Positions 9,029 through 31,403 of a stretch of 64,000 bases of DNA are shown here, piece by piece. Source of the stretch: an uncultured Bacteroidota bacterium (GTDB lineage: Bacteria > Bacteroidota > Bacteroidia > Bacteroidales > P3); assembly GCA_902771735.1 (NCBI GenBank), contig CACXXO010000007.1:62001-126000 (forward strand), read 5' to 3'. Under the pieces are notes generated by a model. The model ran no database searches, was not told where the DNA came from, and worked only from the letters and a program-made list of their open reading frames with translations. Numbering within the stretch: the stretch's first letter is position 1; every line of letters starts with the position of its first letter. Both the position numbers and the translations under genes were made by a program.

Positions 9029-9088
9029 AACGTTCAATAATAGGCAAGGAACATATTATCAATAATAAAATCAAACAGTTACAATAAA

Positions 9089-10285: not shown

Positions 10286-10310
10286 TTAGTAGTCGAGTAG
10301 GCTTTAGTTA

Positions 10311-10361: not shown

Positions 10362-10385
10362 TAATCTCCATAAGAACAAGTAATC

Positions 10386-11201
10386 ATGGAAGACTCCAAT
10401 AAGAAAACCAACCTCTGGAAGAACCTGCTCTACACCTTCCTCGGCACCACTCTCTCCATCCTCCTCACCTTCGGCACCAGCCAGTGGTTGGCACTGCAGA
10501 AGCAGAAAGAGGAGCGCGAGCTGACTGCCATGATGGTGATGGGCAGCATCGAGAAGTTTGCCTCAACCATGGAGAATTTCTCGGAGAAAATGTTTGTACG
10601 CGACACTTTCGCCTCCTATCTGCTCAGCATCCCGATGGATTCGATAGATGCCCCCCAATGCGAACCTCTCCTTGACAGGTTCCTGTCTTTGGGTATTCCT
10701 TTGCTTAAACACGACAAGTCGGTGGAGAAAATATTCTCCAACTCTATCGATACTTGGAAAAACATGGGTAACTTCCGCTTCATTGAGGGGGTGGGAATGT
10801 TGTTCTCCCAGATGGACTACTGGGAAGAGATGCACAATGGGATTTTTGATGAGATGCAGGCGGAAATAGCAGCGGTAAAGAAGAATCCCGATGCATATCC
10901 TGGCAAAACAAATACCGCAAAACTGCTGTACAACCCGAACTTCCGCCGAATCTTGGGACGTTTCCATAACCTTGCCATCCAGGAACGCTATGTGGCCTAC
11001 CATATGCGATACCTTAACCGCTACCAAATGAAACTAATAGATATCCCGGAAGAAGAGGTGCTGGAGTTTGCCCACAGAGATGACGATAATGCGGAGGCTA
11101 TCGTTGGCGAGCCTAAAAAACAAATTAAAGACTTCGTCACCCCGGAACTCAACATCGACAGCCTCCCCGCCGTTGAGGAGTGGATAAATAAATATAAATA
11201 G
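10386..11201 (+). CDS. Single-pass membrane protein of unknown function
   Basis: The 271-residue protein has one transmembrane helix near the N-terminus (LLYTFLGTTLSILLTFGTS, about 14-32) followed by a long helical soluble region. The layout resembles Bacteroidetes proteins of the DUF6090 type, but I cannot confirm membership. The soluble part would be outside the cytoplasmic membrane if the N-terminus is inside. Its stop is one base before the start of the OmpA-like gene, so the two are probably cotranscribed. Base use is less GC-rich than in the following gene. Confidence 0.7.
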   Translation: MEDSNKKTNLWKNLLYTFLGTTLSILLTFGTSQWLALQKQKEERELTAMMVMGSIEKFASTMENFSEKMFVRDTFASYLLSIPMDSIDAPQCEPLLDRFLSLGIPLLKHDKSVEKIFSNSIDTWKNMGNFRFIEGVGMLFSQMDYWEEMHNGIFDEMQAEIAAVKKNPDAYPGKTNTAKLLYNPNFRRILGRFHNLAIQERYVAYHMRYLNRYQMKLIDIPEEEVLEFAHRDDDNAEAIVGEPKKQIKDFVTPELNIDSLPAVEEWINKYK

Positions 11202-16206: not shown

Positions 16207-17571
16207 ATGCAGAAGAAGCTACTCTCGGGATTGTTTTGGGTACTGCTGGCCAACCTGCTGGTGAAACCCTTCTGGATTCTCGGTGTCGAGGTAGGGGTGC
16301 AGAACGCCGTCGGCAACGAGATGTACGGCTTCTACTATTCCATCTTCAACCTCAGCGTCATTCTCAACATCCTGCTCGACCTGGGCATCACCAACTTCAA
16401 CACGCGCAACATCGCGCAGCATCCGCAGCTGATAGCCAAGCACCTGAGCGGCATCCTGGGTATCAAGGTCTGCTTGCTGGGGCTGTACCTTGTGGCGACC
16501 TTCACCGTAGGGGCGCTGATGGGATACGGCAGCGAGGAGTTCCGCCTGTTGGCGTGGCTCACGGTGTGCCAGTTCCTGAGCTCGCTCATCCTCTATCTGC
16601 GCAGCAACTTCGAAGGGTTGCTGCTCTTCAAGTGGGACAGCCTCTTCTCGGTGCTCGACCGCGTGCTGATGATACTCATCTGCGGCAGCCTGCTGTGGGG
16701 CCCCCAATTCTCACTTTTCCATTTCCAATTCACCATTTACCACTTCGTCTATGCGCAAGTCATAGCCTACAGCCTGACGGCCCTGCTGGCCTTTGTGGTC
16801 ATTGCCCGCAAAGCGAAATTATCAATTCTCCATTTTCACTTTTCACTACCATTCTTCCTTGTCATCCTCAAGAAGAGCGCCCCCTTTGCCCTGCTGGTGC
16901 TGCTCATGGCCAGCTACAACCGCATCGACCCCATCCTGCTGCGCCGTTTGGCGGGCGATGCCGACGCCGGTGTCTATGCCGGTGCCTTCCGCCTCCTGGA
17001 CGCTCTCACTGCTGTGGCCTACCTCGTCAGCGTGCCGCTGCTGCCCGTCTTCTCCAAGCTCTGCAAGGAGATAAAGCCCGCCAACCAAGACTCCCTATCC
17101 AAAGACTCTCAACTTGCGAGCATCGTCCGCCTCGTCTTCTGGCCCATGATGATTTTTGCCGTGGGGGTGTCGGTGGTATGTGCCGTGTGGGCAGAACCCA
17201 TCATGCAGCTGCTCTATCATGAAAACTACGCGCCCTATGTACCTGTGTTCCGGGTGGTCATCTTCGGCATCATCCCCATCGGCATCACCTACATCTTCGG
17301 CACCCTCCTCACCGCGGGCAAATATCTGCGCCACCTGAACCTCTTCGCCGCCACGACGCTGGTGCTCAACGTCATTGTCAACCTGGTGCTCATTCCCCGA
17401 CTGGGGGCCACCGGCTCGGCATGGGCATCGCTCACGGCACAGAGTTTCATGGCCGTTGCCCAGCTGATACTCGCCACACGCCTCTTCCGCCTGCCGATGG
17501 CGGCATTCCTTCCGCCGTCGCCGCACAATATTTGGAAAAATATAACGTTATTGTTAAAACAACAAAACTAA
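16207..17571 (+). CDS. Polysaccharide flippase (Wzx/MATE-like)
   Basis: The 454-residue protein has 12-14 predicted transmembrane helices and the layout of oligosaccharide flippases, which move lipid-linked glycans across the inner membrane (ASYNRIDPILLRRLAGDADAGVYAGAFRLLDA, split as ASYNRIDPILLRR and GVYAGAFRLLDA about 237-265, is the family core). Two stretches (16704-16742 and 16814-16858) are AT-rich and repetitive compared with their surroundings and encode FSLFHFQFTIYHF and LSILHFHFSLPFF, suggesting in-frame insertion of simple sequence at loop/helix borders. It lies 9 bp after the lipoprotein gene and 10 bp before fabD. The glycan substrate is unknown. Confidence 0.85.
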   Translation: MQKKLLSGLFWVLLANLLVKPFWILGVEVGVQNAVGNEMYGFYYSIFNLSVILNILLDLGITNFNTRNIAQHPQLIAKHLSGILGIKVCLLGLYLVATFTVGALMGYGSEEFRLLAWLTVCQFLSSLILYLRSNFEGLLLFKWDSLFSVLDRVLMILICGSLLWGPQFSLFHFQFTIYHFVYAQVIAYSLTALLAFVVIARKAKLSILHFHFSLPFFLVILKKSAPFALLVLLMASYNRIDPILLRRLAGDADAGVYAGAFRLLDALTAVAYLVSVPLLPVFSKLCKEIKPANQDSLSKDSQLASIVRLVFWPMMIFAVGVSVVCAVWAEPIMQLLYHENYAPYVPVFRVVIFGIIPIGITYIFGTLLTAGKYLRHLNLFAATTLVLNVIVNLVLIPRLGATGSAWASLTAQSFMAVAQLILATRLFRLPMAAFLPPSPHNIWKNITLLLKQQN

Positions 17572-17581
17572 AGAATAAAGA

Positions 17582-18460
17582 ATGAAAGCATACATTTTCC
17601 CCGGCCAGGGGGCCCAGTTTGTGGGCATGGGCAAGAACCTGTACGACGGCAACGAAGAGTGCCGCGCCATGTTTGAGAAAGCCAATGAGATTATCGGATT
17701 CCGCATCACCGACCTGATGTTCGGCGGCACGCCGGAGGACCTGAAGCAGACCAAGGTGACGCAGCCTGCCATCTTCCTCCACAGTGTCATATTAGCCAAA
17801 TATATGGGCGAAAGCTTCAAGCCCGACATGGTGGGCGGCCACTCGCTGGGCGAGTTTTCGGCCTTGGTTGCCGCCGGCGCCATGAGTTTCGAGGATGGAT
17901 TGAAGCTCGTCATTGCCCGCGCCAACGCCATGCAGAAATGCTGCGAGAAGACCCCGTCGACCATGGCCGCCGTGCTGAAGCTCGACGACAAGACCGTCGA
18001 GGACATCTGCGCCTCGGTGGAGGGCGAAGTGGTGGTCCCGGCCAACTACAACTGCCCCGGCCAGTTGGTCATCAGCGGCACCAACGAGGGAGTGGCCCGT
18101 GCCTGCGAGAAGGTCAAAGAGGTCAAAGGCAAAGCCCTGCCGCTGGCAGTGGGTGGCGCCTTCCACAGTCCTCTGATGGAGCCCGCCCGCGTGGAGCTGG
18201 CCGAAGCCATCGAGCGCACCGAGTTCCGCAAGCCCGTCTGTCCCGTCTACCAGAATGTCGACGCCCAGCCGCACAGCGACCCTGCCGAGATCAAGAAGAA
18301 CCTCCTCATGCAGCTCACCTCGCCCGTGCGTTGGACCTACACGGTGCAGAACATGCTCAAAGACGGCGCCGACGAATTCATCGAGGTAGGCCCCGGAACC
18401 GCCCTGCAGGGCATGGTGAAGCGCGTCAACCCCGACGCCAACGCCCACTCGGCAGAGTGA
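17582..18460 (+). CDS. fabD: Malonyl-CoA:ACP transacylase
   Basis: The 292-residue protein moves malonyl groups from CoA to acyl carrier protein for fatty acid synthesis. It has the FPGQGAQ start, the active-site serine in GHSLGE (Ser88) and the catalytic histidine in GGAFHSPLM (His195), and VEVGPGTALQGMVKRV near the C-terminus. It is the last gene of the plus-strand run begun by the sirtuin gene, and is followed by a terminator hairpin. Confidence 0.97.
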   Translation: MKAYIFPGQGAQFVGMGKNLYDGNEECRAMFEKANEIIGFRITDLMFGGTPEDLKQTKVTQPAIFLHSVILAKYMGESFKPDMVGGHSLGEFSALVAAGAMSFEDGLKLVIARANAMQKCCEKTPSTMAAVLKLDDKTVEDICASVEGEVVVPANYNCPGQLVISGTNEGVARACEKVKEVKGKALPLAVGGAFHSPLMEPARVELAEAIERTEFRKPVCPVYQNVDAQPHSDPAEIKKNLLMQLTSPVRWTYTVQNMLKDGADEFIEVGPGTALQGMVKRVNPDANAHSAE

Positions 18461-18484
18461 TTTTTATGAACCCATAAGAAAAAG

Positions 18485-18535
18485 CCAAGAGCTAAGAAGT
18501 GAGGTCATCCCGCATTTCATAGCTCTTGGTTTTTA
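18485..18535. terminator. Terminator between fabD and the thioesterase gene
   Basis: CCAAGAGCTA (18485-18494) pairs perfectly with TAGCTCTTGG (18520-18529), followed by a T-run on the plus strand. Its right arm overlaps the last codons of the converging thioesterase gene. Confidence 0.8.
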
Positions 18536-18909
18536 TTTCTTACCTTCTCTATGAATTTCGCGGTGTCGATGATGAAACGCTCGTGAGAGCCTTCGCCAAT
18601 GGCGCCGCACTCGTCGAAAGCCTTCACCTTGAACACCAGCCGACGGCGGTCGACTTCCACCAGCTCGCTCTCGCACCACACGCGCATGCCGATGGGGGTG
18701 GCGGCGGTATGGGCCACGTTGACCAGCGTGCCCACGGTGCCCTGCCCCTCGTCGAGGAAGGGGAGCACACTCTCGTTGCAGGTCTTCTCGACCAGGGCTA
18801 TCATCATGGGTGTGGCAAAGACATCCTCCAGACCGCTGCCCACACGTGCGGCGCTCATTTCGGGCGTCACCGTCTCTTCCAGACGGCCCTTGATTCCTGT
18901 TTGTATCAT
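18517..18909 (-). CDS. Hotdog-fold thioesterase (FlK-like)
   Basis: The 130-residue protein has the pattern of small acyl-CoA thioesterases of the fluoroacetyl-CoA thioesterase type: SGLEDVFATPMMIALVE (about 21-37), the turn GQGTVGTLVNVAHTAATPIG, and an extended strand RRLVFKVKAFDE. Such enzymes hydrolyse short acyl-CoAs in the cytoplasm; the substrate cannot be told. The start MIQTGIKGRL at 18909 was chosen because the longer frame adds residues from an AT-rich leader. Confidence 0.8.
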   Translation of the reverse strand: MIQTGIKGRLEETVTPEMSAARVGSGLEDVFATPMMIALVEKTCNESVLPFLDEGQGTVGTLVNVAHTAATPIGMRVWCESELVEVDRRRLVFKVKAFDECGAIGEGSHERFIIDTAKFIEKVRNKNQEL

Positions 18910-18973
18910 TGTGAGATTATTGAGATTATTTTTGTCATTTATTGTAGTAAGCGAAAAAAAAATGGACTCTTCG

Positions 18974-19534
18974 CTACAATTGATTTGATTCTGCGGCCAT
19001 GGGGAGTGGGGCATCCTCTTCCTCGATGGTGTAGTGAATGGGTGCGTGGTGCTTGTAGAGCGAGAGGAGGTTGTCGTTGAGGAGTAGCTCCACTTCGCGC
19101 ATAGTGTGCTCTATTTTCTTCGGTGTCAGCTGGCACTCCCACACCACAATCACCTGCCACCCGTTCTCCTGCAGCACACGGTAGTTCTCTTGGTCGCGTT
19201 CCCGGTTGCGGCGGATTTTGGCGACCCAGAACTCGCGGTTAGAAGAGGGAATCTTGCAGCACGCCGAGTTCTCAATTTTCAATTCTGAATTTTCAATTTG
19301 TGCGACTTCCAGCCGCACACCGTATCCATGCCAAAAACAGCCGTTCACGAATATCGCCGTCCTGTATGGCCGCAACACGATATCCGGCTTCCCCGGCACA
19401 CTCTTCACATTCAGCCGATACCTATACCCATGACTCCACAGCCACCGCCGCACCTTCAGCTCCGGCTTCGTTGCCTTGCTGCGTATATGCGACATGCACC
19501 TATGCCGCTGCTCCGGTGTCATCGTGTCTGTCAT
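18974..19534 (-). CDS. vsr: Very short patch repair endonuclease
   Basis: The 186-residue protein matches Vsr, which nicks DNA at T:G mismatches made by deamination of 5-methylcytosine. Seen are the N-terminal MSHIRSKATKPE (Glu25), catalytic Asp51 in GKPDIVLRP, VNGCFWHG (Cys66, His69) and FWVAKIRRNRERD. At the position of the E. coli zinc ligand His71 there is a tyrosine, and the following loop (about residues 79-91, IENSELKIEN) is encoded by an AT-rich repetitive stretch at 19262-19300. The start overlaps the transposase stop by 4 bp. No cytosine methyltransferase gene is in the window. Confidence 0.87.
   Translation of the reverse strand: MTDTMTPEQRHRCMSHIRSKATKPELKVRRWLWSHGYRYRLNVKSVPGKPDIVLRPYRTAIFVNGCFWHGYGVRLEVAQIENSELKIENSACCKIPSSNREFWVAKIRRNRERDQENYRVLQENGWQVIVVWECQLTPKKIEHTMREVELLLNDNLLSLYKHHAPIHYTIEEEDAPLPMAAESNQL
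19262..19300. repeat. AT-rich simple-sequence insertion within vsr
   Basis: This stretch repeats AATTTTCAATTCTGAATTTT-like units and stands out against the GC-rich gene. It encodes a repeated peptide (IENSELKIEN) and keeps the reading frame. Similar tracts occur in the flippase, GT117 and lptC genes of this window. Confidence 0.65.
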
Positions 19535-20571
19535 ATCGTTGTTATCTCTTCTGCCATCGTGTTGAGCGCCACGCAGTCCTCGCGGCTAATGTGGCGTTTG
19601 CCAGCATCGTATTCCCAAGGGCTGAGGATGAGCACGCACCCTGCGGCGCAAGCGTCGAAGAGGGCATCCGTGGGCTTGTAGTATTCCCGGAAGCCGTTGT
19701 CCGTGAGGAGGACGAACGGCAGTTCCTCCCGTAGCAGCACCTCCATCACCTGCTTCTCCTGTGGCGAGATGAATGGCGAAACCATCACCGCCCCCTTGCG
19801 CGCCGCCAGCACACAGCCGTTCATATAGTCGCGCAGCGGAGCGTCGTCGCCCTGTTCGGCCTTCTGCACCATCGCCCGCCGCACATGCACCGTCTCAAAC
19901 CGTTCGGCCATCAGCAGCGTCGCGTTCCCCACACCAGCGTAGCTGCGTCCGCCAATCTCAATTCCCCGCTGCACGCGGAAAAAGCCCGGCTTCAGTCGCT
20001 TGGTAGCCAGCCGCTGGGGGTTCATATGTACATAGCGCATCATCGTATCCAATTGCCCTCGCCGCGACAGCGGGCGAATGAACGGACGTTCGGTGAAAAC
20101 AGGGAAAGGATAGAAATCTTCCGTTGCCGCCTCCTTGTCCGTTGTCCCCGCGTCTTTGTCTGTTTTCCCTGAGCCGTTGTCTGCTGTTCCCGAATTCAAT
20201 TCGGGGCTAATCGACAAAGTGTGTGCCCGACCATGCCTCTTAACCCCCTGCCAATATCCGCGAATCACATTGCGAATACTGGTATCCATCACCCGTGTCA
20301 TATGGATAATGGCATGCAGATGATCCGGCATAAGGCAGAACTGGAGAATGCGGATAGCGGGATAGTGCTTGCACATCACGTAAAGCTCTTCCACGACAGC
20401 TTCGCCCAATGTCGTCCTGGTCACATGAGCTTGCGTCGGGTCGTTCTGCGGAATCACCAAGGTGCCCAGCAGAGGTTCGCGCGAAGGCACCGTCAGCGTG
20501 ATATGATATATACCAACCCCATTCCAAGCCGTCCCCGGCTCCTGCCATTGCCATTTTTCCTGCACCGCCAT
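19531..20571 (-). CDS. REP-associated tyrosine transposase (RAYT, Y1-type)
   Basis: The 346-residue protein has the HUH motif DHLHAII (His84, His86) and the catalytic tyrosine region MMRYVHMNPQRL (Tyr180) of Y1 transposases of the IS200/RAYT group, which act on single-stranded palindromic repeats. A 37-residue low-complexity linker (about 119-155, coding 20107-20217) separates the two motifs, and its DNA contains the same 17-bp palindrome as the repeats just upstream. A C-terminal extension of about 150 residues (FISPQEKQVMEVLLREELPF, about 263-282) resembles a nucleotide-binding or TnpA-associated domain I do not recognise. The stop overlaps vsr. Confidence 0.87.
   Translation of the reverse strand: MAVQEKWQWQEPGTAWNGVGIYHITLTVPSREPLLGTLVIPQNDPTQAHVTRTTLGEAVVEELYVMCKHYPAIRILQFCLMPDHLHAIIHMTRVMDTSIRNVIRGYWQGVKRHGRAHTLSISPELNSGTADNGSGKTDKDAGTTDKEAATEDFYPFPVFTERPFIRPLSRRGQLDTMMRYVHMNPQRLATKRLKPGFFRVQRGIEIGGRSYAGVGNATLLMAERFETVHVRRAMVQKAEQGDDAPLRDYMNGCVLAARKGAVMVSPFISPQEKQVMEVLLREELPFVLLTDNGFREYYKPTDALFDACAAGCVLILSPWEYDAGKRHISREDCVALNTMAEEITTI
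20189..20205. repeat. REP-like palindrome inside the transposase gene
   Basis: CCCGAATTCAATTCGGG is a perfect 8-bp inverted repeat with a single central base. It matches the core of the two palindromes at 20681-20699 and 20828-20846. Confidence 0.8.
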
Positions 20572-20635
20572 GGTATTTCTATACTGTACTGTTTCTAAAA
20601 TAAACGCACAGAAACATTTTTTATTGTCCCAAACG

Positions 20636-20899
20636 CTTCGTCCATTGTCGCCCCTTCGTCCATTGTGGCCCGTCCATTGTGGCCGAATTCAATTCGGCCG
20701 CCCTTCCCCTTCAAAAGCAAACAGGAAATCACCCCTTGCAGCAAACCAATTCCGACGCCCCTTTGTCCATTGTCGCCCCTTTGTCCATTGTGGCTCCTTC
20801 GTCCATCGTTGTCCCTTTGTCCATTGTGGCCGAATTCAATTCGGCCGCCCCTCCTTCAAAAGCAAACAGGAAATCACCCCTTGCAGCAAACCAATTCCG
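20636..20899. repeat. REP-like repeat block upstream of the transposase gene
   Basis: Two direct copies of a unit of about 73 bp (20681-20754 and 20828-20899, 147 bp apart) each begin with the palindrome GGCCGAATTCAATTCGGCC and continue with the shared TTCAAAAGCAAACAGGAAAT and CAAACCAATTCCG. Each palindrome is preceded by several copies of an 8-10 bp motif of the form TCCATTGTSG. The arrangement next to a RAYT gene suggests this is its cognate repeat. Confidence 0.78.
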
Positions 20900-20911
20900 A
20901 AAAAGGCACCG

Positions 20912-21001
20912 CTACAGCACCTTCAGCTCGGGCTTAGTGCCCTTCGAGCGGATATGCGACATACAGCGGTGCCGCTGCACCGCTGTCGTCGTGTCGGTCA
21001 T
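20912..21001 (-). pseudogene. Truncated second copy of vsr (N-terminal fragment)
   Basis: The minus strand encodes MTDTTTAVQRHRCMSHIR and SKGTKPELKVL before a stop, matching the first 28 residues of the intact vsr at 19534 (MTDTMTPEQRHRCMSHIR, SKATKPELKV). Homology ends at the stop codon, directly next to the REP-like repeat block. It is therefore a partial duplication or the remains of an older vsr gene, too short to act as a nuclease. Confidence 0.85.
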
Positions 21002-21053
21002 AGTATTGTAAACAATAGTTTGTCAACATTTGTCCGCACGGATTCAAATTTTT

Positions 21054-21260
21054 CTAATTCTGTCGGACATTTGCAAAAGTAAAACGTCCTCTGTCCTCCA
21101 ACCGCTCGAAGTTCCAGTATTTCTGATAACCCAGCAACCGTGCCAGCTTACGCGAGTTCCACCACTCACGACCCTCCCCGTCCGTCTCTTTGATGGCATC
21201 GAACGGCGACAGCATCTCCTGTGGGGTGAAAAGGATAGGGTTGTTATGATTGTTTTCCAT
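21054..21260 (-). pseudogene. DinD-like gene fragment
   Basis: The short frame contains SPFDAIKETDGEGREWWNSR and KLARLLGYQKYWNFE, which match the N-terminal domain of DNA-damage-inducible protein D / BRO-type proteins, but it ends after about 68 residues where family members run to about 270. An in-frame ATG 12 bp upstream (21272) is also possible. The fragment precedes the vsr fragment on the same strand and is probably a relic of an accessory gene. Confidence 0.7.
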
Positions 21261-21325
21261 GGTGATTATCATTGTTTAGTTTAGAAGCCTTGTCTATAGG
21301 TTATAAGTTTTTGTTTTGTAAAAAA

Positions 21326-24300
21326 TTACAATACTTTTTCCAGGTATAAATTTGCTAAACATACCGCCACTTCTTGCGGCTCTTCGCGGGGACGCCAGGC
21401 AAGCACATAACTTACTTCCGCATCGACAACTTGATATCCTTGCTGATTCAGTTTTGAGATATCTTCCCGCTTGCCTTTAGATAGGGATGCAATAGGTTGG
21501 TTCTGCTCCGAATATAGAATGCCGTTTCTATAACGAAGTTTGTCGCCACTACGCAATGCCAGCACCTCGGCTTTGTGGTCACGGAAATAATCGAGCCAAA
21601 CATCTCGCATCGAAAGAGTGATGATTATACGTTTTTCTTGCTGTTTTTGCACATCTAAAGGACGCTGACCAAAAAGAGGGCTATCAGAATGTATATACAG
21701 GTTGTGACGGGCACGGGTCATTCCCACATACAAGGTTCGCAGAGTATCAACATCTATGTCATGTAAACCAAACAGCCATAGATGAACCGCATCAAATTCG
21801 CGCCCTTTGGCCTTATGGATAGTACTGACGTAAACTGATTTACCATCAATGCTGGCGAAATCTTCGATATTTGATTCCAACAAGAACTGGCGAAGGTCGG
21901 TACGGTAAAACGAGCGGTGTGTTTGCTCGTAGTCTTTCCAGAATCGTTGAATGACTGGCAAAATACGGCTGTTAGCATAGGTTTGCTCAGTACGCTGCTT
22001 GGCAGTCTCCCATACGTCTTTTGGAATCACTATGTCTGAATCTTTCCCAAATTGCTTGACGAAGTAACGTATCTCAGCCAGATTTATAAAACGAAATCCT
22101 TCTGTGGCTTGAATCAGTAGGGGGTGGTATCCCTGACGTTCCAGATGATATGCCGCTTGTAAGGCTTCTTCGTTTGTAAAAGTCAAGATGGCAGTAGTGT
22201 CTGCAAATGGAGTTTCTGTGATGGTAGAAAACGAGGACTTAGGCAAAAAATCTACCGATCCCAAAGATTCACTCGTGGAGACAATAGGCGAGCACTTCAT
22301 TCGATTTGGAATACGGCATACAAAATCGTTTGCGAAGTTGACAATCGCCTGATCAGAACGATAATTGTCAGTCATCTCATAAAGAGTAGCTCCTTGCTGA
22401 TCAACCAACGACCGCATATATGCCGAATTGCTCCCTCGGAAGTGGTAGATGTTTTGATCGTCATCACCAACGGCAATAATACGCATCTCTTCGTTACGTT
22501 GCAACAAAGCACGTACCAACCGGAAGTCCTCTTTGGACATATCTTGTGCTTCGTCGATTACAAGCACACTCTTGGCAACCTTTTTCTCCTCAACCTCACC
22601 CTTTTCTATCATTTCTGCTGCACGGTCGACCACTTGATCCACCTCTTCCAAACTTCCAAGTTGTCCCAAGAGGTCAAATGCGAAGGAGTGGAATGTCTTT
22701 ATGTCAACATAGTGAGCAGCATTGCCAACCAAATCGATAAGTCTCCGTTTGAACTCCGTAGTTGCAGCCCTCGAGAAAGTCAACATCAACAATTGCTCAT
22801 GTTTTACGTCTTCCATCAGCAGGAGAGATGCCAGTTTGTGCACCAATACACGTGTCTTTCCACTACCGGGTCCTGCAGCGACAACGATATATTGAGATTC
22901 CTTATCGTCAATAATTTGACGTTGACGTGCGGATAGTGTAGCAAAAAGTTGATGGTATTTTGAGGGAGTGATATTGCGGGATATTTCCGTTTTACGTTCT
23001 CCCTTGAAATATTGTCTTATAAATAGATTATAATCCAGCGTAAAATAGTCATTCACATATTTTGTTGCGGCGGGATAGTCTTTGACCATCATGTTTGCAT
23101 ATTCTCCAACGATATGGATTTGCTGCATCCGCTGCCTGTAGAAAGCGTCAAGTAGGCGATACTGTTCCTTGCCGTACTGAGTACGTCGTTCTACTTTACG
23201 CTCCAGTTGCATGGTGTTATATATTACCATAAAACCACCATCAATCTTCAGTACTTCATTTCTGCTTAAATAAAGGAACGCCTCCTGCATATCAGCTAAT
23301 GATGGTTTTGGCTCCAAGGTGATATGAGTATCATTGTAGTTCCTTAGCTGATCGACCAAAGAGAAGGTAACATATTGCGAGGGATTCTCCTTGTGTAATT
23401 GGACAGCTTGTGCTCCTATAGTGCTAACAATATAGTAACATAAATCGGCACGTCGTCCGAAACGGGCATTAATATCATCTTTTTCGAGCAAAAGATAAAT
23501 GGAAACACTATCGCTTTCAGCATGTTCGCTCTTTCGCAAATATCCTTTTAGGGCTAAAAATGAGAGCAATGTGCGCAAACGCCTAGGTGTACTATTTTTA
23601 AGGCCCTCCATAAGCGCTTGTTGGTTCAGTTGTTTATAATTGAGGTGAGGACAGCCCTTTGTGATTTGTTGAATTAGAAATTGTTCAAGTTGTAAAGTGA
23701 TATCAAGTAGCCGTTTCAAGTTTATTTTGTCCACCCAGATTTGCATATCCTGCGTGTCGGCCAAGATTCCCTCCTGTCGCATCAAGTTTATGCTGCTAAT
23801 GACGGTCTCCTTGGTCATCCCAAGCAGGTCGGCAAGATAATCTATGCGACTTTCCGCCTCGTTGTTGTTTGCAGAGGTAGCACGCTTACTTATTAATGAA
23901 CCTATTATTCGCGCAGATTGTTCCCGTGTGGTATCATCGAAGAGAGGAGAAACAGACAGGCGATGTCTGACTTCGTCCATCGTATTCACGGTAATTCCGG
24001 TGGCAAACAGATGTGGCGAATTGCTTCCTCTAACAATAAAACCAGCATTTTCCAACGCAGCCAATGCTGCACGAACACGTGTCTCAATATCTGGCACTTC
24101 GTCGCTCCATCCAGCCTTACGGGCAATTTCCAATGCTGAACAACCAATTGTGGGACGTTGTACAGTCATATCTCTGACAGCTCTCCACACTTGTCTAATT
24201 TCGCTTAGAGAAAGCTTTGTCTGATTGAGAAGTATGAAATGTTTATCAAGATCGTTGTCGGAATATAGCACATAACAGTCGGCCTCCATTTTGGGATCAC

Positions 24301-26029
24301 GTCCTGCACGACCTGCCTCCTGTATATAGTTCTCCAACGAATCGCTAATATCATAGTGGACAACCAATCCGACATCTTTTTTATCTACACCCATACCAAA
24401 GGCAGATGTGGCAACAATCACTTGAGCATCACCGCTCATAAAAGCCTCTTGGTTGCGAATCTTGTCTGCCGCTTCCATTTTGCCGTTAAATGGGAGGGCT
24501 CTTATTCCATCCGACCTTAACTTTGCTGCCAGCTCCTTAGTGCGTTTGGTTCGGGCACAGTATACAATAGCAGGACAGGATCGTCCAATGAGCAATGACC
24601 GGAGCAGATGGTATTTTTCATCATGAGTGTTCGCTTGCAGAACAGAATAACGTAGATTCTTTCGCTCAGAACTTGCTGTGAAGAGCCGCAACTCTACACC
24701 TATTTTCTGCCTGAAATAGTCGCAAATATCAGCAACCACCTTAGGCTTTGCGGTAGCTGTGAAGCAGCTGACAGGAATTGGATTCTTCTGTTTCTTTTGT
24801 TCCTGTATATGTCTGATAAAATCGCCTATATACAGATAATCCACACGGAAATCCTGCCCCCAAGCGGAAAAACAGTGAGCTTCATCGATAACAAATCTAA
24901 CTACGTTTCGTCCCAACAACAATCGCTCGATGGTTTTATTTCGCAACATCTCCGGGGAAATGTATAGCATATCAGCAGAACCTTCCGCCACCTGTTGAAT
25001 AGCAGCGGAACGTTCTATGGGATCGAGTAGACCGTTTATCGTTACAGCTGTAGAAATACCTCGATTGGAAAGATTATCCACTTGGTCCTTCATTAGTGAC
25101 TGAAGGGGAGAAATAACTACGGTTAACCCCCGTTCGTTTCGCCCCAAAAGGAGTGCCGGTAGTTGAAATGTCAGGCTTTTCCCTCCTCCTGTTGGGAAAA
25201 TGCATAGCAAAGATTCGTTTCGAATAGCACTTTCTACCGCTTGCTGTTGCATGGGGACTCCGTCGAAAAGTCGAAATTCCTTATAGCCAAAAAACTCCTT
25301 TAGTGCTGCATGTGCATCGAGCCGCTTGCTGCAATACTCACACCCATCACAAGGTGTACCGCATAGTAGGTGAATCACATTTGTCACCTTCGGATATGTG
25401 TGCACAACCCAGGGAGGAGTAATTGAACCAGGGTCACCAACCCCTATGATAGATAGAGCAAATGCCAATTCCACAGGATATTTGTCTGCAACCGCAGCAA
25501 CATTGGCATTGCTGCATATATAACCTTTGTATTCCTGTCTGATAATATCAGCAACAACCCAACTAAAGGGGAAAGAAATGTCTATGCCAATATATTCAAA
25601 GAACGCCTTAAACTCCGCTACATTGCGGAGTAACAGATAATAGATGGTTTTTCGTCTTTCGGGCAAGCGTTTCCATGCTGTTAATTCGTCATAAAAAAGG
25701 TCTCGCGCTTTGATAGCATCATTCAACGGATTATTCAGCTCATCTACCTGAAGTTTGTCATCCTTTACCAAACGGTGATAAGGTCTTTGCGGAAACAGGA
25801 GTGGAGAAAGATAAAGTGTATCTATTGCGTGAATCTGTTGCGGAATATGAAGATACTGTAAGTCGTGATGGATGATATTATGCCCACATACGAATCCACA
25901 GTCTTTTATGAAAAGAGCGAAATCGCTAAGGGAACGGGAATGAATTTGCGCACCGTCTTCCCGTATCGCACCATAGTCCATCGTACGTCTCGAATCAATG
26001 CCGACCTCTGTATCTATGAATGCAATCAT
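21326..26029 (-). CDS. Giant fusion: DEDD exonuclease - RecQ helicase - UvrD helicase
   Basis: The 1567-residue protein has three enzymatic modules. Residues 1-115 look like a DnaQ-type 3'-5' exonuclease (FIDTEVG with Asp6/Glu8, HHDLQYL with Asp56, Asp104), though the usual final histidine seems to be an asparagine. A C-x3-C-x2-C-x2-C zinc-like motif follows (223-233). Residues 255-700 form a RecQ-type SF2 helicase (GGGKS 281-285, DEAH 382-385, YIQEAGRAGRD about 568-578). Residues 1030-1560 form a UvrD-type SF1 helicase (GPGSGKT 1053-1059, DEAQD 1159-1163, DDDQNIYHFRG, STIHKAKGREFD, YVGMTRARHNLY). It starts 10 bp after the nuclease-helicase gene and is AT-richer than the flanking housekeeping genes. 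A role in genome defence or recombination is inferred. Confidence 0.87.
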   Translation of the reverse strand: MIAFIDTEVGIDSRRTMDYGAIREDGAQIHSRSLSDFALFIKDCGFVCGHNIIHHDLQYLHIPQQIHAIDTLYLSPLLFPQRPYHRLVKDDKLQVDELNNPLNDAIKARDLFYDELTAWKRLPERRKTIYYLLLRNVAEFKAFFEYIGIDISFPFSWVVADIIRQEYKGYICSNANVAAVADKYPVELAFALSIIGVGDPGSITPPWVVHTYPKVTNVIHLLCGTPCDGCEYCSKRLDAHAALKEFFGYKEFRLFDGVPMQQQAVESAIRNESLLCIFPTGGGKSLTFQLPALLLGRNERGLTVVISPLQSLMKDQVDNLSNRGISTAVTINGLLDPIERSAAIQQVAEGSADMLYISPEMLRNKTIERLLLGRNVVRFVIDEAHCFSAWGQDFRVDYLYIGDFIRHIQEQKKQKNPIPVSCFTATAKPKVVADICDYFRQKIGVELRLFTASSERKNLRYSVLQANTHDEKYHLLRSLLIGRSCPAIVYCARTKRTKELAAKLRSDGIRALPFNGKMEAADKIRNQEAFMSGDAQVIVATSAFGMGVDKKDVGLVVHYDISDSLENYIQEAGRAGRDPKMEADCYVLYSDNDLDKHFILLNQTKLSLSEIRQVWRAVRDMTVQRPTIGCSALEIARKAGWSDEVPDIETRVRAALAALENAGFIVRGSNSPHLFATGITVNTMDEVRHRLSVSPLFDDTTREQSARIIGSLISKRATSANNNEAESRIDYLADLLGMTKETVISSINLMRQEGILADTQDMQIWVDKINLKRLLDITLQLEQFLIQQITKGCPHLNYKQLNQQALMEGLKNSTPRRLRTLLSFLALKGYLRKSEHAESDSVSIYLLLEKDDINARFGRRADLCYYIVSTIGAQAVQLHKENPSQYVTFSLVDQLRNYNDTHITLEPKPSLADMQEAFLYLSRNEVLKIDGGFMVIYNTMQLERKVERRTQYGKEQYRLLDAFYRQRMQQIHIVGEYANMMVKDYPAATKYVNDYFTLDYNLFIRQYFKGERKTEISRNITPSKYHQLFATLSARQRQIIDDKESQYIVVAAGPGSGKTRVLVHKLASLLLMEDVKHEQLLMLTFSRAATTEFKRRLIDLVGNAAHYVDIKTFHSFAFDLLGQLGSLEEVDQVVDRAAEMIEKGEVEEKKVAKSVLVIDEAQDMSKEDFRLVRALLQRNEEMRIIAVGDDDQNIYHFRGSNSAYMRSLVDQQGATLYEMTDNYRSDQAIVNFANDFVCRIPNRMKCSPIVSTSESLGSVDFLPKSSFSTITETPFADTTAILTFTNEEALQAAYHLERQGYHPLLIQATEGFRFINLAEIRYFVKQFGKDSDIVIPKDVWETAKQRTEQTYANSRILPVIQRFWKDYEQTHRSFYRTDLRQFLLESNIEDFASIDGKSVYVSTIHKAKGREFDAVHLWLFGLHDIDVDTLRTLYVGMTRARHNLYIHSDSPLFGQRPLDVQKQQEKRIIITLSMRDVWLDYFRDHKAEVLALRSGDKLRYRNGILYSEQNQPIASLSKGKREDISKLNQQGYQVVDAEVSYVLAWRPREEPQEVAVCLANLYLEKVL

Positions 26030-26039
26030 TCTCTTTGAA

Positions 26040-28163
26040 TTAAATTTCTTTTATACCTAGCGATTTCAAATAGTTAAACGTCCCATCATAAAACTCGGGC
26101 AAGCGTGTGGGGTCTTCGGGATAGCCTTCTGGTGTTAGGTTGGAATTGCCTTTTGGAACGCAGATAACAATTCCTTGACGGGCACGTGTCAGAAGTACGC
26201 GGTAGGCGTTGAGCATGTATTTTTGGTTCTCCTCGTTGTTCTCTGGTGTCCACTTGTTGCGCCCATTGAACTTGTAGTATTTCCACTCGCCATTCTCGCA
26301 ACGCATATCAGCATCCCACAGGATACAGGCGTAGTCGAGTTCCAATCCCTGTACCTGTATCTCGGTGGCGGCATCCTCCAGGTAGTTAGATGAACGGACG
26401 TCGGTCTTGTCCTCGAGGAACCAATGAACGGCATTGCCCTCATCCTGAGGCAACACATTAACGGCCAGCGGCTTGAAACGGGCTGCCACTTTGGTAACAA
26501 GAACGCCCGTCTGTTGGGTACCACGAGCCTTATTGCGTAGCCACTTGCGGGCAGTATCCATATCGCGTGTGAGCACGACGGGATAGTTGCGACCCGCCAC
26601 ATCTCGATACAATTCGACAGCATCTGGACGGAAAGAGAGTAGCGAATGTACGAAGGCGGATAGGGTTTCTGCACGGAAAGAACGAAGGCTGACAGCCAAA
26701 TGCAAATCGTCGGAGAATGTTACCTTGTTGTTCTCCGCGAGCAGTTCATTAACTCGTCCTTCTGCATATTCAGCATCTGTCAGCTTGTCGGATATAAAGA
26801 TATTCCAATGACGGAACTGATTATTGAGTGCCCTGATCCACTCTGTGATGCCGGCCTCACCGGTGTTGATTTCCTGACCACCACCTACCAAACAGACAAT
26901 GACGGCCCAATCCTCGCGTTGGTCGAGCGACCAGATGAGGAACTCGGCCTCAGACATAGGGAAGTTGGGTACTTTGAGTTTGTTGCCGTACGTGCCTCCA
27001 CGTTTCAGATAGTCGGCAATACGTTTGTGTGTCCAGCTGCGCTGAGCTTCGTCGAAGATGGCCACGTGCTCCACCTCTCCATAGCCAGTATGCTCCAACC
27101 GGATGGCTTTTTCGGGGTCAATCTCCACCACGCCATTCTCCACGGGATTCTTTATTTTGGCAAGCATATTGTCGCGGTAGCGGTGGATGATTTGGATGAA
27201 CTCACTGACTTCGCGTCGCGAGTCAGAAAGACGTTTCTTTTCTCCCCTTTCAGTACATTTCTTCTGGTTATCGCGGGCCAATGCTTCGGTCAGCACAGCC
27301 ACCAAAGGACCGTTGCCCGATAGGTAAACAGCTCCGTTTTCCTTATCTAACTCGCCATTCTGATAGGTCTGTTTGATGGCTACATCGAGACCTACTAGTG
27401 TTTTGCCGGCACCGGGGACGCCAGTCACAAAACAGATGCTCTTCTTGTTATGAGCCTTGCTTCGCTGGATGACCTGAAGAATGTAGTTGATGGTGCGGTC
27501 GGTAGAGACTTCGTCGGCCTCGTGGCGGGTGATATCCTCCACTGAGTGGTTCTCATAGAGCGCTCGTGCCGCCTCGATAATGGTGGGCGTAGGCGTGTAA
27601 GGGCTGATGAGCCAATCGGTTATTGTGCTCTTGTCTTCTGTGGCGTGTGCGTGATTCAGAACGTTGGAGATTAACGTCTGGAGATGGTCGGCACCCGAAA
27701 TAAGTGGGTTGTATATCTGGTCGTCGTAGACAGACGGCTGAAACGTCGTTGAAGAAGTGGTGCGCTTAGTGGGTACAAGGACGGGAACAATCACTCGGTC
27801 GTGACTGAAACGATGGAAGTTCTTCAGGTCGAGTGCATAATCCATCACCTGTTCCACATCGGCTTGCAGGACGTCTTTCTGCCCCACCTTGAATTCAAGA
27901 CAGAAGATGATGCCACGAAGCAACAGGACCACATCGATGCGCTTGCCCAATCGTGGTATTTCGTATTCGAAGATTATTTGCGCGTTCTCACCCTTCCAAG
28001 GTATCAATACCTGTTGCATGATGTCTATCTCGCCCATCCAGGCCTCGTCGGTTGTAGTCAATGCGTCGCCATGATAGTTGCTATGGAGAGTGCCCAAAAC
28101 AGCAAGGCGTTCCTGCTCAAGGAATTCCTTAAAGGTATTTGCATATAGACATCTGTTTAGCAT
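26040..28163 (-). CDS. PD-(D/E)XK nuclease - DUF2075 (Schlafen-like) helicase fusion
   Basis: The 707-residue protein has an N-terminal nuclease-like region with the PD-(D/E)XK pattern RIDVVLL ... LEFKVG (Asp77, Glu90, Lys92) and a C-terminal DUF2075 SF1-like ATPase with GVPGAGKT (248-255), FDEAQRSW (about 370-377) and a late RVLLTRARQG motif. The start was moved to 28163 because a promoter (-7 box 28183-28190) lies over the longer start at 28193. It is the first gene of an operon with the giant exonuclease-RecQ-UvrD fusion. DUF2075 proteins commonly appear in defence and mobile regions; the exact task here is inference. Confidence 0.85.
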   Translation of the reverse strand: MLNRCLYANTFKEFLEQERLAVLGTLHSNYHGDALTTTDEAWMGEIDIMQQVLIPWKGENAQIIFEYEIPRLGKRIDVVLLLRGIIFCLEFKVGQKDVLQADVEQVMDYALDLKNFHRFSHDRVIVPVLVPTKRTTSSTTFQPSVYDDQIYNPLISGADHLQTLISNVLNHAHATEDKSTITDWLISPYTPTPTIIEAARALYENHSVEDITRHEADEVSTDRTINYILQVIQRSKAHNKKSICFVTGVPGAGKTLVGLDVAIKQTYQNGELDKENGAVYLSGNGPLVAVLTEALARDNQKKCTERGEKKRLSDSRREVSEFIQIIHRYRDNMLAKIKNPVENGVVEIDPEKAIRLEHTGYGEVEHVAIFDEAQRSWTHKRIADYLKRGGTYGNKLKVPNFPMSEAEFLIWSLDQREDWAVIVCLVGGGQEINTGEAGITEWIRALNNQFRHWNIFISDKLTDAEYAEGRVNELLAENNKVTFSDDLHLAVSLRSFRAETLSAFVHSLLSFRPDAVELYRDVAGRNYPVVLTRDMDTARKWLRNKARGTQQTGVLVTKVAARFKPLAVNVLPQDEGNAVHWFLEDKTDVRSSNYLEDAATEIQVQGLELDYACILWDADMRCENGEWKYYKFNGRNKWTPENNEENQKYMLNAYRVLLTRARQGIVICVPKGNSNLTPEGYPEDPTRLPEFYDGTFNYLKSLGIKEI

Positions 28164-28182
28164 TTCTATTAAATTGAATTTG

Positions 28183-28213
28183 CAAAGGTACAAATAATTC
28201 TTGAGTTGACAAA
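28183..28213 (-). promoter_or_regulatory. Promoter of the nuclease-helicase operon
   Basis: On the minus strand TTTG (28213-28210) and TACCTTTG (28190-28183) are 19 bp apart, a consensus Bacteroidetes promoter. The predicted transcript start near 28177 places the ATG at 28163 as the first usable start. Confidence 0.8.
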
Positions 28214-28364
28214 AAAACTTTACTATTGATAATTATATCATCGATAGGACCATTGTCTCACTAATAGGCGTTTGATCTATTACCTGCATGCTACATTTGG
28301 TTTGTTCCCTCCCCGACATTGTTGGCGAGAATCTGCGGCAGATGCAAGGCAAGAAGCCTGTATT

Positions 28365-28546
28365 TCAAAGTCTTGAAACTGATGGGCGCATCAGTCGTTT
28401 AAAAGTGCGCACATCCCACTTTTGAGCGATGCACTCTTTCTCGTAAAAACTACGCTCAAGGTTGTCATCTATTTTGATCAATTCTCCTATATGCGACCAC
28501 GTCAAATTGTCAGACATGTCTGACAATTGGGATATAGCAGATATAA
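28365..28546 (-). pseudogene. YhcG/DUF1016-type nuclease gene remnant
   Basis: The minus strand encodes NLTWSHIGELIKIDDN, LERSFYEKECIAQKWDVRTF and KRLM, matching the middle of YhcG-type (DUF1016) PDDEXK nuclease proteins, which often accompany restriction-modification systems. The frame ends at a stop at 28365-28367 and begins after an in-frame stop near 28547, so only about 60 residues of about 350 remain. Inside it lies a 24-bp perfect palindrome (28505-28528). Confidence 0.65.
28505..28528. repeat. 24-bp perfect palindrome
   Basis: The sequence AATTGTCAGACA followed by its exact reverse complement TGTCTGACAATT forms a perfect palindrome without a spacer. It lies inside the YhcG-like remnant and reads SDMSDN there. 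Confidence 0.8.
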
Positions 28547-28565
28547 GTTAAAAAAAACATAGAGG

Positions 28566-28631
28566 GAGTAAAGAAGGGGCGTAGAAGGCTGCACCACCGA
28601 AGCGCCACCGAAGGATTGTCGAAGGATTGGC
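28566..28631. repeat. Tandem 11-bp-period repeat tract (diverged)
   Basis: On the minus strand, units CAATCCTTCGA, CAATCCTTCGG, TGGCGCTTCGG, TGGTGCAGCCT, TCTACGCCCCT and TCTTTACTCCC follow each other with an 11-bp period. The unit differs from the GGTAGGAGTTG family but the period is the same. Confidence 0.55.
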
Positions 28632-28946
28632 ATAAAAAAGGCACCGTTATTGCGGTGTTCTTTCTGTACCACCTGGGTTTAGGACTACCCACATTTGACA
28701 CAATTAACACTCACGCCCTATGTTTAGCGCGAACACCCGTGTATCGACTGATTGCAGGAAGTGTATGAAGTGCTAATTCGGTATCCTCAGCTTAATCAAG
28801 GATGCTCAACTCTTATATTACTCTGTTTTTCTTATTGATACGTTTCTTATTATTCTTTGTTTACATCTGCAAATATACATATTTTTTTTCATTCTACCAG
28901 ATGTCGGTGACAATATGGTGGACACTTTGCTGGAAAAAATCCTTTT
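28632..28946. other. Intergenic stretch without a recognisable gene
   Basis: This AT-richer region holds no frame I can support. Downstream of the repeat tract it shows no promoter or terminator with a clear match. It may contain further decayed accessory sequence. Confidence 0.4.
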
Positions 28947-29669
28947 TCACCCTTCGTATTCTCTCAATAAGTTGCGTTTCTTATTGGAACCTACCCGCGA
29001 GGGAGATGTTTGGATTGGCAGGGAGAGGTGAATGGTGTCGGAGGTGCGGGAGTAGGTGGAGCGGAGGAAGGCGTAGAGGTGGAGAGAGTGGGGGTCGGTT
29101 TGCGGGATTGCCGGAGTGGATTCCTCCTGGGTGTTTGGGATGGGTTGGAGCCATTCGGGAGGGAGGACGGCGGTGACGAGGCCGGCGGAACGGGGAACGG
29201 GGGTGGCGAGACGGCCGGTGCAGAGGGCGGGGAAGTAGACGAAGAGGTAGAACTCGTCGGTGGCACGGCCGCCATAGACACGACTGTCGAAAGTGACGGT
29301 AAGGACATTGCCGTCGATGGAGGCCGAAGTGATTTCCACTCGCTCCACAGTGCCGCGACTGACGATGATGCGAGGGAGGTCGACCTGGCCGTCGGGAGTA
29401 AAGCAATCCTTGTTGAGGTGCTTGAAGATGGAGTAGGTGCTGTCCTTCTTCCGAACGGCATGCCAGTGGAGGCCGACGAGGTGTGCCTCCTTCATGTAGG
29501 ACGAGAGCTTGGATATTATCGCGAAGTTGCTGCGATGGGCCTGTTGCGCCTCAGTTTTCGGGTTGGCCACAGAAGTGGGCATGGAACGCTCGCATTGCCG
29601 ACCGTGCCAGGTGTAATATATCTTGTTGCCGAGTTTACCGCTCTCGTAATCGCCCTGTTTTCTTGCCAT
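28947..29669 (-). CDS. DUF6266-like protein of unknown function
   Basis: The 240-residue protein starts MARKQGDYESGKLGNKIYYT, with WHGRQCERSMPTSVANPKTE and AQQAHRSNFA following. This N-terminal pattern (short Gly-rich lead, W-x-G-R, then NPxTxAQxxxRxxF) is typical of DUF6266-type Bacteroidetes proteins, whose function is unknown. The rest is a predicted beta-rich domain (VERVEITSASIDGNVLTVTF). A longer frame upstream is rejected because the extension reads through the repeat at 29797-29851 and lacks similarity. It stands alone, between the island and kbl. Confidence 0.62.
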   Translation of the reverse strand: MARKQGDYESGKLGNKIYYTWHGRQCERSMPTSVANPKTEAQQAHRSNFAIISKLSSYMKEAHLVGLHWHAVRKKDSTYSIFKHLNKDCFTPDGQVDLPRIIVSRGTVERVEITSASIDGNVLTVTFDSRVYGGRATDEFYLFVYFPALCTGRLATPVPRSAGLVTAVLPPEWLQPIPNTQEESTPAIPQTDPHSLHLYAFLRSTYSRTSDTIHLSLPIQTSPSRVGSNKKRNLLREYEG

Positions 29670-29796
29670 AATAACCAATATTTGATAATATACCAAACGC
29701 AGGAATGGACTTTTTATTGTGTCGGGATGGGGCTTAGGGCGCCGAAAGAACATGGGAGGTACCTTAGATGCACCACGAGAGCACCTCCTTGTTACC

Positions 29797-29851
29797 ATAG
29801 AGTTGGTTTAGAATTGGTGTAGAGTTGGTATAGACTTGGTGTAGGGATGCT
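29797..29851. repeat. 11-bp tandem repeat tract, copy D (diverged)
   Basis: Five consecutive 11-bp units (ATAGAGTTGGT, TTAGAATTGGT, GTAGAGTTGGT, ATAGACTTGGT, GTAGGGATGCT) follow TTACC. Unit length, number and the GAGTTGG core agree with copies A-C, but the CCTACCGTGGTAGG core is missing. Confidence 0.7.
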
Positions 29852-29884
29852 ATAGGCCTTCCGCACAACATAACTCTCTGACTT

Positions 29885-29907
29885 ATATTCTTCTAAAAGA
29901 AGAATAT
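29885..29907. repeat. AT-rich hairpin
   Basis: ATATTCTTCT (29885-29894) pairs perfectly with AGAAGAATAT (29898-29907) across three A residues. It lies between two other repeat structures in the 309-bp gap before kbl; the rest of the gap shows no gene. Confidence 0.6.
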
Positions 29908-29930
29908 ATAGTAATTGTCGGGGTGCAAGA

Positions 29931-29956
29931 AGAGGGCGCCCGTTTGGGCGCCCTCT
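29931..29956 (-). terminator. Terminator of kbl
   Basis: AGAGGGCGCCC (29931-29941) pairs perfectly with GGGCGCCCTCT (29946-29956) across four bases, 23 bp after the kbl stop. A clean T-run is missing on the minus strand, so strength is uncertain. Confidence 0.65.
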
Positions 29957-29978
29957 TTGCTATCGTAAAGTCGCTACC

Positions 29979-31160
29979 TTATTTCTCGATTTCGGCACGG
30001 ACTTTCTTGAAGGCCTCGATGCACTTGTCGAGGTGCTCGTGCTCGTGGGCAGCGCTGATCTGGACGCGGATACGGGCCTGGCCTTTCGGGACGACGGGAT
30101 AATAGAAGCCGGTGACGAAGATGCCTTCTTCCTGCATCTTGGCGGCATACTGCTGGCTCTTGGCGGCGTCGTAGATCATGACGGCGCAGATGGCACTCTC
30201 GCTGGGCTTGCAGTCGAAGCCTTCTTCCTTCATGCGGCGCAGGAAGTAGTCGGTGTTCTCGTGCAGCTTGTCCTGTAGGGCGTTGGTCTCGCTCATGAGC
30301 TCGAACATGCGGATGCCGGCGGCCACAAGGCCGGGAGCCATCGAGTTGCTGAAGAGGTAGGGACGGCTGCGCTGACGGAGCATGTCGATGATTTCTTTCT
30401 TACCGGTGGTGAAACCGCCCATGGCGCCGCCAAAGGCTTTTCCGAGGGTGCCGGTGAGGATCTCAATCTTGCCACGCAGGTTGTAGCGCTCGGTGACACC
30501 GCGACCGGTCTTGCCGACGACGCCGGCGGAGTGGCTCTCGTCGACCATCACCATGGCGTCGTACTTGTTGGCGAGCTCGTAGATCTTGTCGAGCGGGCAG
30601 ACGTTGCCGTCCATGGAGAAGACGCCGTCGGTGACGATGATGCGGAAGCGGTTCTTCTGAGCGGCCTTGAGCTGCTCCTCGAGGTCGGCCATATCAGCGT
30701 TGGCATAGCGGTAGCGCTGGGCCTTGCAGAGGCGGACGCCGTCGATGATGGAGGCGTGGTTGAGGGCATCGGAGATGATGGCATCCTCTTCGGTGAGGAG
30801 GGGCTCGAAGACACCGCCGTTGGCGTCGAAGCAGGCGGCGTAGAGGATGGTGTCCTCGGTGCCGAAGAATTCGGCGATTTTCTTCTCGAGCTGCTTATGG
30901 AGGTCCTGACAGCCGCAGATGAAGCGGACGGAGGCCATGCCGAAGCCGCGGGCGTCCATGCCCTTCTTGGCGGCGGCGATGAGCTCGGGGTTGTCGGCGA
31001 GGCCGAGGTAGTTGTTGGCGCAGAAGTTGAGGCACTTCTTGCCCTTCACCATGATTTCGGCGCCCTGGGGGCTCTCGATGATGCGTTCATTCTTGTAAAG
31101 ACCGGCGGCCTCGATGTCGGCCAGCTCTTTCTGCAGGTGCTGTTGGAATTTGGTGTACAT
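29979..31160 (-). CDS. kbl: Glycine C-acetyltransferase (2-amino-3-ketobutyrate CoA ligase)
   Basis: The 393-residue PLP enzyme of the alpha-oxoamine synthase family shows NFCANNYLGLADNPEL (about 45-60), FGMASVRFICGCQDLH, the DESHSAGVVGKTGRG motif (Asp about 207) and the PLP lysine in TGTLGKAFGGAMGG. It cleaves 2-amino-3-ketobutyrate with CoA into glycine and acetyl-CoA in threonine breakdown. The partner threonine dehydrogenase is not next to it; the gene is alone with its own promoter. The close relative serine palmitoyltransferase, common in Bacteroidetes, is less likely given the RFICGCQDLH motif. Confidence 0.93.
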   Translation of the reverse strand: MYTKFQQHLQKELADIEAAGLYKNERIIESPQGAEIMVKGKKCLNFCANNYLGLADNPELIAAAKKGMDARGFGMASVRFICGCQDLHKQLEKKIAEFFGTEDTILYAACFDANGGVFEPLLTEEDAIISDALNHASIIDGVRLCKAQRYRYANADMADLEEQLKAAQKNRFRIIVTDGVFSMDGNVCPLDKIYELANKYDAMVMVDESHSAGVVGKTGRGVTERYNLRGKIEILTGTLGKAFGGAMGGFTTGKKEIIDMLRQRSRPYLFSNSMAPGLVAAGIRMFELMSETNALQDKLHENTDYFLRRMKEEGFDCKPSESAICAVMIYDAAKSQQYAAKMQEEGIFVTGFYYPVVPKGQARIRVQISAAHEHEHLDKCIEAFKKVRAEIEK

Positions 31161-31241
31161 AATTACAAATTTTGTTATTATTACTATTTTACTTTCTGAC
31201 TTTTAGTGTTTTATCCGTATAAAACCCGAATTATCAACCTA

Positions 31242-31273
31242 CAAAAATACAAAAAAAACTTTTCGCCACCAAA
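31242..31273 (-). promoter_or_regulatory. Promoter of kbl
   Basis: On the minus strand TTTG (31273-31270) and TATTTTTG (31249-31242) are 20 bp apart. The leader to the start codon is about 75 nt. Confidence 0.72.
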
Positions 31274-31403
31274 TTTTTTTCCATCGGCGCAACAAAAATA
31301 CGCCCCCTCTTCCTTTTGCAGCAAACGCTGCGAGGGGAGGGGCAGGCCACGGGGCTGAAGAGGAAGAATGGGGAGGTGAGGAATGGTGGGTGAGAAGAAG
31401 CCT

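Follow-up and report, generated by a model that had tools for sequence, protein, structure and literature searches.

Two adjacent genes for nuclease-helicase proteins, here referred to as A and B, are found in the 64,000-nucleotide stretch of DNA that we analyzed (the window), and they raise the question of whether they form a single, hitherto undescribed two-gene defense system, as stated in the original prediction, or are separate genes that have come to lie side by side. Both are encoded on the minus strand, with B (positions 26040 to 28163; 707 amino acids from the ATG) preceding A (21326 to 26029; 1567 amino acids) and a gap of only 10 bp between them. The single exact match in the window to the TTTG-N19-TAnnTTTG motif, which we take to be the Bacteroidetes promoter consensus, occupies positions 28183 to 28213 of the same strand, 19 bp ahead of the ATG of B. 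In 2-kb windows, the GC content is 0.43 to 0.51 across A and B and 0.56 to 0.58 in the flanks. The two genes, their spacing, their promoter, and the AT richness of the region relative to its neighbors are real, and the nuclease and helicase domains assigned to the two proteins are largely as had been described: matches to PF09848, RecQ, and UvrD families were all recovered, as were a DEDD fold and a Cys cluster.

Gene A encodes a fusion of a DEDD-type exonuclease, a Cys cluster, a RecQ helicase, and a UvrD helicase, all features listed here being on the minus strand. Membership of its N-terminal domain (25670 to 26029) in the DEDD (DnaQ-like) exonucleases is supported by the fold (best Foldseek E value of 1.1e-3) and by four acidic residues, D6, E8, D56, and D104, which are invariant in 105 of 105 aligned rows, including that of the window. 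Some of these rows represent one genome under two handles, and the alignment leaves out L088, L015, L035, and L085, at which A is interrupted by internal stops. Position 99, which in our reading of the motif would be the equivalent of the DEDDh His, is Asn in 102 of the 105 rows and Ser in the other 3, so that the domain lacks the DEDDh His; with N99 in its place, exonuclease activity of A is not certain. The Cys cluster C227-x2-C230-x2-C233 (25331 to 25351) is invariant in 77 of 77 rows and, together with C172 (25514 to 25516), is likely to bind metal. The RecQ helicase core (24176 to 25321) matches PF00270 and PF00271 and scores above the cutoff of the TIGR00614 family (274.5 versus 219.8 bits). 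It is not a canonical RecQ, as the match to the TIGR01389 equivalog stops at residue 637 and reaches 314 bits versus the required 640, and neither RQC nor HRDC families are found among the Pfam matches of A at E values of 0.1 or below. The UvrD/Rep-like helicase (21680 to 22945) matches PF00580, PF13361, and PF13538 above their cutoffs. The Walker A and DExx positions of A that were sampled are invariant in the 105 rows; the exception is the Ala in the two DEAx motifs, which is conserved in 104 of 105. At locus L198 (G183:C115), A is divided between two open reading frames (6133 to 8388 and 8385 to 10952) that overlap by 4 bp and set the exonuclease-RecQ part apart from the UvrD part, a hint that the two halves of A can function as separate proteins.

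The domain layout of A is reminiscent of human WRN, an exonuclease-RecQ helicase that likewise starts with a DEDD exonuclease and continues with a helicase and whose RecQ core is among the PDB matches of A, and of the exonuclease-helicase DinG of Staphylococcus aureus, which is the best structural match to residues 1 to 240. Unlike either of these, A carries a C-terminal UvrD helicase and a Cys cluster ahead of the RecQ core. PsyrT and DpdF have the RecQ core in common with A, and their matches end at that core; assignment to DpdF (Dpd) was rejected based on the NF041063 score of 203 bits, versus a cutoff of 550 bits. Among the 25 listed of the 78 matching families, no PADLOC model covers A in full, and literature searches on RecQ/UvrD/DEDD combinations found no paper on a fusion of this type.

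In B, the SLFN-g3 (DUF2075) DNA/RNA helicase domain (26154 to 27443, minus strand), with the Walker A motif GVPGAGKT and a DEAQ motif, matches PF09848 with an E value of 5.3e-66 over residues 251 to 680 of the 717-amino-acid open reading frame. N-terminal to it, in a region that can be delimited only approximately (27774 to 28046, minus strand), the D77...E90-x-K92 arrangement fits a PD-(D/E)XK nuclease at the motif level and does not vary among the five B proteins that were aligned; the predicted structure, which was based on this five-sequence alignment, did not confirm the fold (pLDDT of 41.8). The PADLOC model PDC-S41 (PDLC05014), in which we read the “S” as standing for single-gene, covers B end to end (positions 2 to 653 of the 657 in the model, 824 bits, E value of 2.5e-248) and is also matched by four other B proteins of the genus and one from another family. 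Thus, B is a catalogued defense candidate, and half of the supposedly undescribed system has already been listed; its pairing with A is no part of PDC-S41. The literature search found no paper that names PDC-S41 and no published test of phage protection by B, and the name has no occurrences in the main text of PMC13356809. Searches for DUF2075 together with antiphage, for Schlafen/DUF2075, and for Vsr/DUF2075/Hhe also returned nothing.

Several known systems bear a partial likeness to this locus. Gabija shares with it the combination of a nuclease and a UvrD-type helicase, and the C-terminal half of A matches GajB models; unlike in Gabija, the UvrD helicase of A is fused to RecQ and exonuclease domains. 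Assignment to Gabija was rejected: the four PADLOC matches of B include GajB at 16 bits and no GajA, which is not listed for the four other small neighbors scanned with PADLOC either. Nhi and AbiO give weak partial matches in B, 15.5 and 21.7 bits, respectively, versus 824 bits for PDC-S41, and membership in Nhi was rejected, as the match extends over model positions 141 to 222 of 470. HamA and HamB of Hachiman are not among the four PADLOC matches of B; for A, the comparison with Gabija and Hachiman covered 25 of the 78 matching families. A phage origin found no support in scans of viral contigs, where neither A nor B had a relative; in a “phages” collection, for which B was the sole query, the one match, MT836127, is an unverified and unannotated fecal scaffold.

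Gene A was detected in 73 of the 190 genomes of the family (E value of ≤1e-150) and in 15 of the 395 genomes of the phylum, and B was detected in 21 of 190 (E value of ≤1e-60) and 23 of 395 (E value of ≤1e-40), each of these counts taking in the window's own genome. The expectation that the two would co-occur more often than by chance holds, mildly, within the family, where B is present in 13 of the 73 genomes with A and 8 of the 117 without it (P = 0.019, with shared descent ignored), and fails outside it, where both are found in 1 of 394 genomes (P = 0.56). A wide scan yielded 448 A-related stretches, from which 80 loci were kept. B is present in the fetched DNA of 4 of these loci and missing in 76, many of the contigs ending within 10 kb, and apart from A, no gene family recurs in more than 9 of the 80. 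Outside the family, none of the 20 B loci, a few of them with short flanks, had A in the vicinity of B. Within the genus, A and B are adjacent in 5 of the 12 genomes that hold both. With neighbor frequencies of 4/80, 0/20, and 5/12 and with B belonging to PDC-S41, the idea of one stable, undescribed two-gene system is not supported: outside the genus, A and B are seldom side by side, an outcome that the original prediction had named as refuting it. On plasmids, 193 records match A, with coverage reaching 80% or more of its length in 3 records, and 4 match B; the A-family proteins on the plasmids examined are annotated merely as “RecQ family ATP-dependent DNA helicase.” Two large plasmids with A relatives, NZ_OY725908 (L201) and NZ_CP043858 (L202), encode ParA within approximately 6 kb of A, and a third plasmid does not.

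The pairs found in the genus are of more than one kind. B is located directly upstream of A in the window and in genomes G076, G063, and G075, representing three different B lineages (the window, G076, and G063/G075), and directly downstream of A in G103. In addition to this genus set, the wide scan gave two loci with a downstream B, L012 (RGIG7809) and, inverted, L021 (RGIG5947). Pairs from several B lineages are encoded on the same strand with a spacing of about −4 to +10 bp. In the tree of B, support values of 1.0 were obtained for the eight-member clade that includes the window B, for the pair of G076 and G055, and for the pair of G063 and G075. The A genes of the window and G076 are sisters, though their B lineages differ: in 200-bp steps, the DNA identity of the two loci is mostly 84 to 96% in A and 50 to 68% in B, with the switch near positions 25900 to 26100. 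Genomes G055 and G058 carry an A without an intact B beside it, and just upstream of this A, only the last 77 and 52 residues of B, respectively, can be matched; between G055 and G063, the latter with a B, the A genes share 97% identity. These differing B genes next to nearly the same A, along with the B remnants, suggest that gain, exchange, and loss of B have all taken place at A. A MutT/NUDIX-like gene lies directly after B in L012 (8267 to 8653) and directly after A in L010 (6469 to 6864), with overlapping gene ends; in L021 (6163 to 6552), roughly 3.4 kb separate it from A. We assigned the names fabD, kbl, and MutT presumptively, by reading the sequence.

The A-B pair occupies part of a variable interval (18919 to 29865). 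In the relative G085, the same flanks (window positions 17518 to 18918, with 85% DNA identity, and 29866 to 31285, with 90%) enclose instead ~17 kb with Dnd/Pbe genes, including matches to DndC, DndD/PbeC, DndE, PbeA, and PDC-S01. In the window, the interval also holds, on the minus strand, a vsr gene for a mismatch/nicking endonuclease (18974 to 19534; TIGR00632 above the cutoff), which by its linkage in the genus serves as a hotspot marker, a fragment of a second vsr copy (20876 to 21001; 64% identity over 36 amino acids of the query), and a 72-amino-acid N-terminal fragment resembling DinD/PDC-S05 (21054 to 21272; PDC-S05 E value of 4.4e-13, with PRK11525 [DinD] far under its cutoff). A repeat array at positions 20672 to 20946 (1.9 tandem copies of a 145-bp unit, overlapping shorter repeats of 18 and 36 bp) adjoins the vsr and DinD-like fragments, giving the appearance of a decayed, repeat-rich stretch. 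The start of vsr is overlapped by 4 bp by an open reading frame (19531 to 20571) for a 346-amino-acid protein that is weakly similar, below curated cutoffs, to REP-associated tyrosine (Y1) transposases; a relative with 30% identity is encoded ~0.3 kb after A in L028. At the other end, a DUF6266 protein gene adjoins kbl in the window and in the two relatives G085 and G055, and one directly precedes B in G113 and G055; these copies (window, 28947 to 29798; L181, 17460 to 18164; L200, 1689 to 2465; and L193, 5799 to 6515) share no more than 26 to 29% identity.

Other B loci of the genus show similar company. In G055, the gene order is kbl, DUF6266, B, a Fic gene, and vsr, and A is absent there. 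Within approximately 6 kb of B, G116 carries type III-D Cas10d and Cas5 genes, and G113 carries a type IIG restriction-modification gene. The gene for translation factor IF-2 is near B in G071 and G113, and 6 of the 10 neighbors of B or A scanned alongside these had no PADLOC match. vsr is present in 84 of 120 genus genomes and is found within 10 kb of B in 10 of the 12 that hold the two genes (0.11 expected) and within 10 kb of A in 6 of 49 (0.44 expected), the expectations being those of random placement, ignoring contig breaks and shared descent, and the vsr list omitting some second pieces of split genes. Within the genus, B is linked more strongly to vsr than to A; outside the family, vsr is near B in none of the 20 loci, some with short flanks. 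The one PF00145 (dcm-type) gene of the window genome is on another contig. Around B outside the family, 107 proteins (open reading frames of >1200 amino acids omitted) matched 122 PADLOC models, versus 6 models in a control of equal size (107 of 114 proteins, drawn from 12 of these 20 genomes). The signal around A is weaker, with 75 models for 114 of the 143 eligible proteins, all from loci L022 to L086, versus 23 models for 89 of 113 distant proteins; both tallies count models rather than proteins, and one protein may match many of them. The wider set of A neighbors includes many metabolic and transposase genes. The description of A and B as patchy, accessory genes in a defense context is supported by the Dnd/Pbe swap in G085, the linkage of B to vsr in 10 of 12 genomes of the genus, and the 122 versus 6 models near B.

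Each gene usually occurs without the other, yet they have been joined several times within the genus, which looks like a recurring partnership and not like one fixed new system. Our tentative main reading, with a probability of about 0.48, is that A and B are modular accessory genes, independent of each other, whose products use ATP to degrade foreign DNA; they share vsr-marked defense hotspots of the genus and, in this genome, one promoter. We count in its favor the invariant catalytic residues, the exonuclease fold of A, the PDC-S41 match, the patchiness, the Dnd/Pbe swap, the Cas and restriction-modification genes near B, the vsr linkage, the PADLOC matches around B outside the family, and the recurrent pairing. 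Counted against it are the absence of A and vsr near the 20 outside B loci, the chance-level co-occurrence there, the mixed context of A, the neighbors with no PADLOC match, the IF-2 genes near B, the ParA neighbors, the A genes without an intact B in G055 and G058, N99, and the unconfirmed fold of B. Judging from gene context, B may reasonably be credited with a defense role, and such a role is plausible for A as well. Most likely, B would bind a foreign DNA structure or end, move along the DNA by means of its SLFN-g3 helicase, and cut it via the PD-(D/E)XK domain; A would load on the ends so produced, or on intermediates of replication and recombination, and its RecQ and UvrD motors would unwind the duplex while the DEDD domain digests a 3' strand. 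We infer this biochemistry as a whole from the domains; phage or plasmid DNA as the target, B as the maker of substrates for A, and the cooperation of the two are likewise inferred.

A less likely, if serious, alternative is that the functions of A and B are unrelated, B being a stand-alone PDC-S41 defense gene, and that their adjacency reflects a pileup of genes in the hotspot, where a promoterless newcomer would have its best chance of survival downstream of a gene that is already transcribed. The clustering of both genes with vsr in the genus is consistent with this, as are the adjacency in merely 5 of 12 genomes, the lack of A near all 20 outside-family B loci, the variable gene order, and the apparent loss of B in G055 and G058; the tight same-strand spacing across several B lineages and the different B lineages next to nearly the same A in the window and G076 argue against it. 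It is doubtful, but conceivable, that A is a stand-alone, widely spread one-chain DNA degradation machine against mobile elements, in which a WRN-like exonuclease-RecQ part is joined to UvrD and a Cys cluster of its own, and whose operon is repeatedly entered by accessory endonucleases such as PDC-S41, as exchangeable front-end nucleases supplying A with DNA ends.

The relatives of RecQ and UvrD function in DNA repair, and A could be an accessory machine for repair or plasmid maintenance, a bacterial counterpart of WRN plus UvrD that would act by rescuing stalled forks or resolving intermediates of recombination, with the defense context being incidental. The WRN RecQ core among the PDB matches, the plasmid copies near ParA genes, and the often metabolic neighbors fit such a role; the patchiness (73/190 and 15/395), the changing neighbors, and the linkage to vsr in 6 of 49 genomes are unlike those of a core repair gene, making it improbable. 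Least probable is that B and A, as an operon, make up a single two-component system of the genus dedicated to antiphage defense, since adjacency is the exception for the A as well as the B genes examined, whatever the single promoter match, the 10-bp gap, the repeated pairing, and the mild co-occurrence in the family may suggest.

We return to A and B as modular accessory genes that have become partners repeatedly, if not lastingly, in one genus. If A is indeed a defense protein, the nuclease-helicase defenses known so far would be extended by a large family that bears no annotation beyond “RecQ family ATP-dependent DNA helicase,” and its reversible, repeated pairing with PDC-S41 would illustrate how, in nature, a multigene defense is assembled from single-gene parts.
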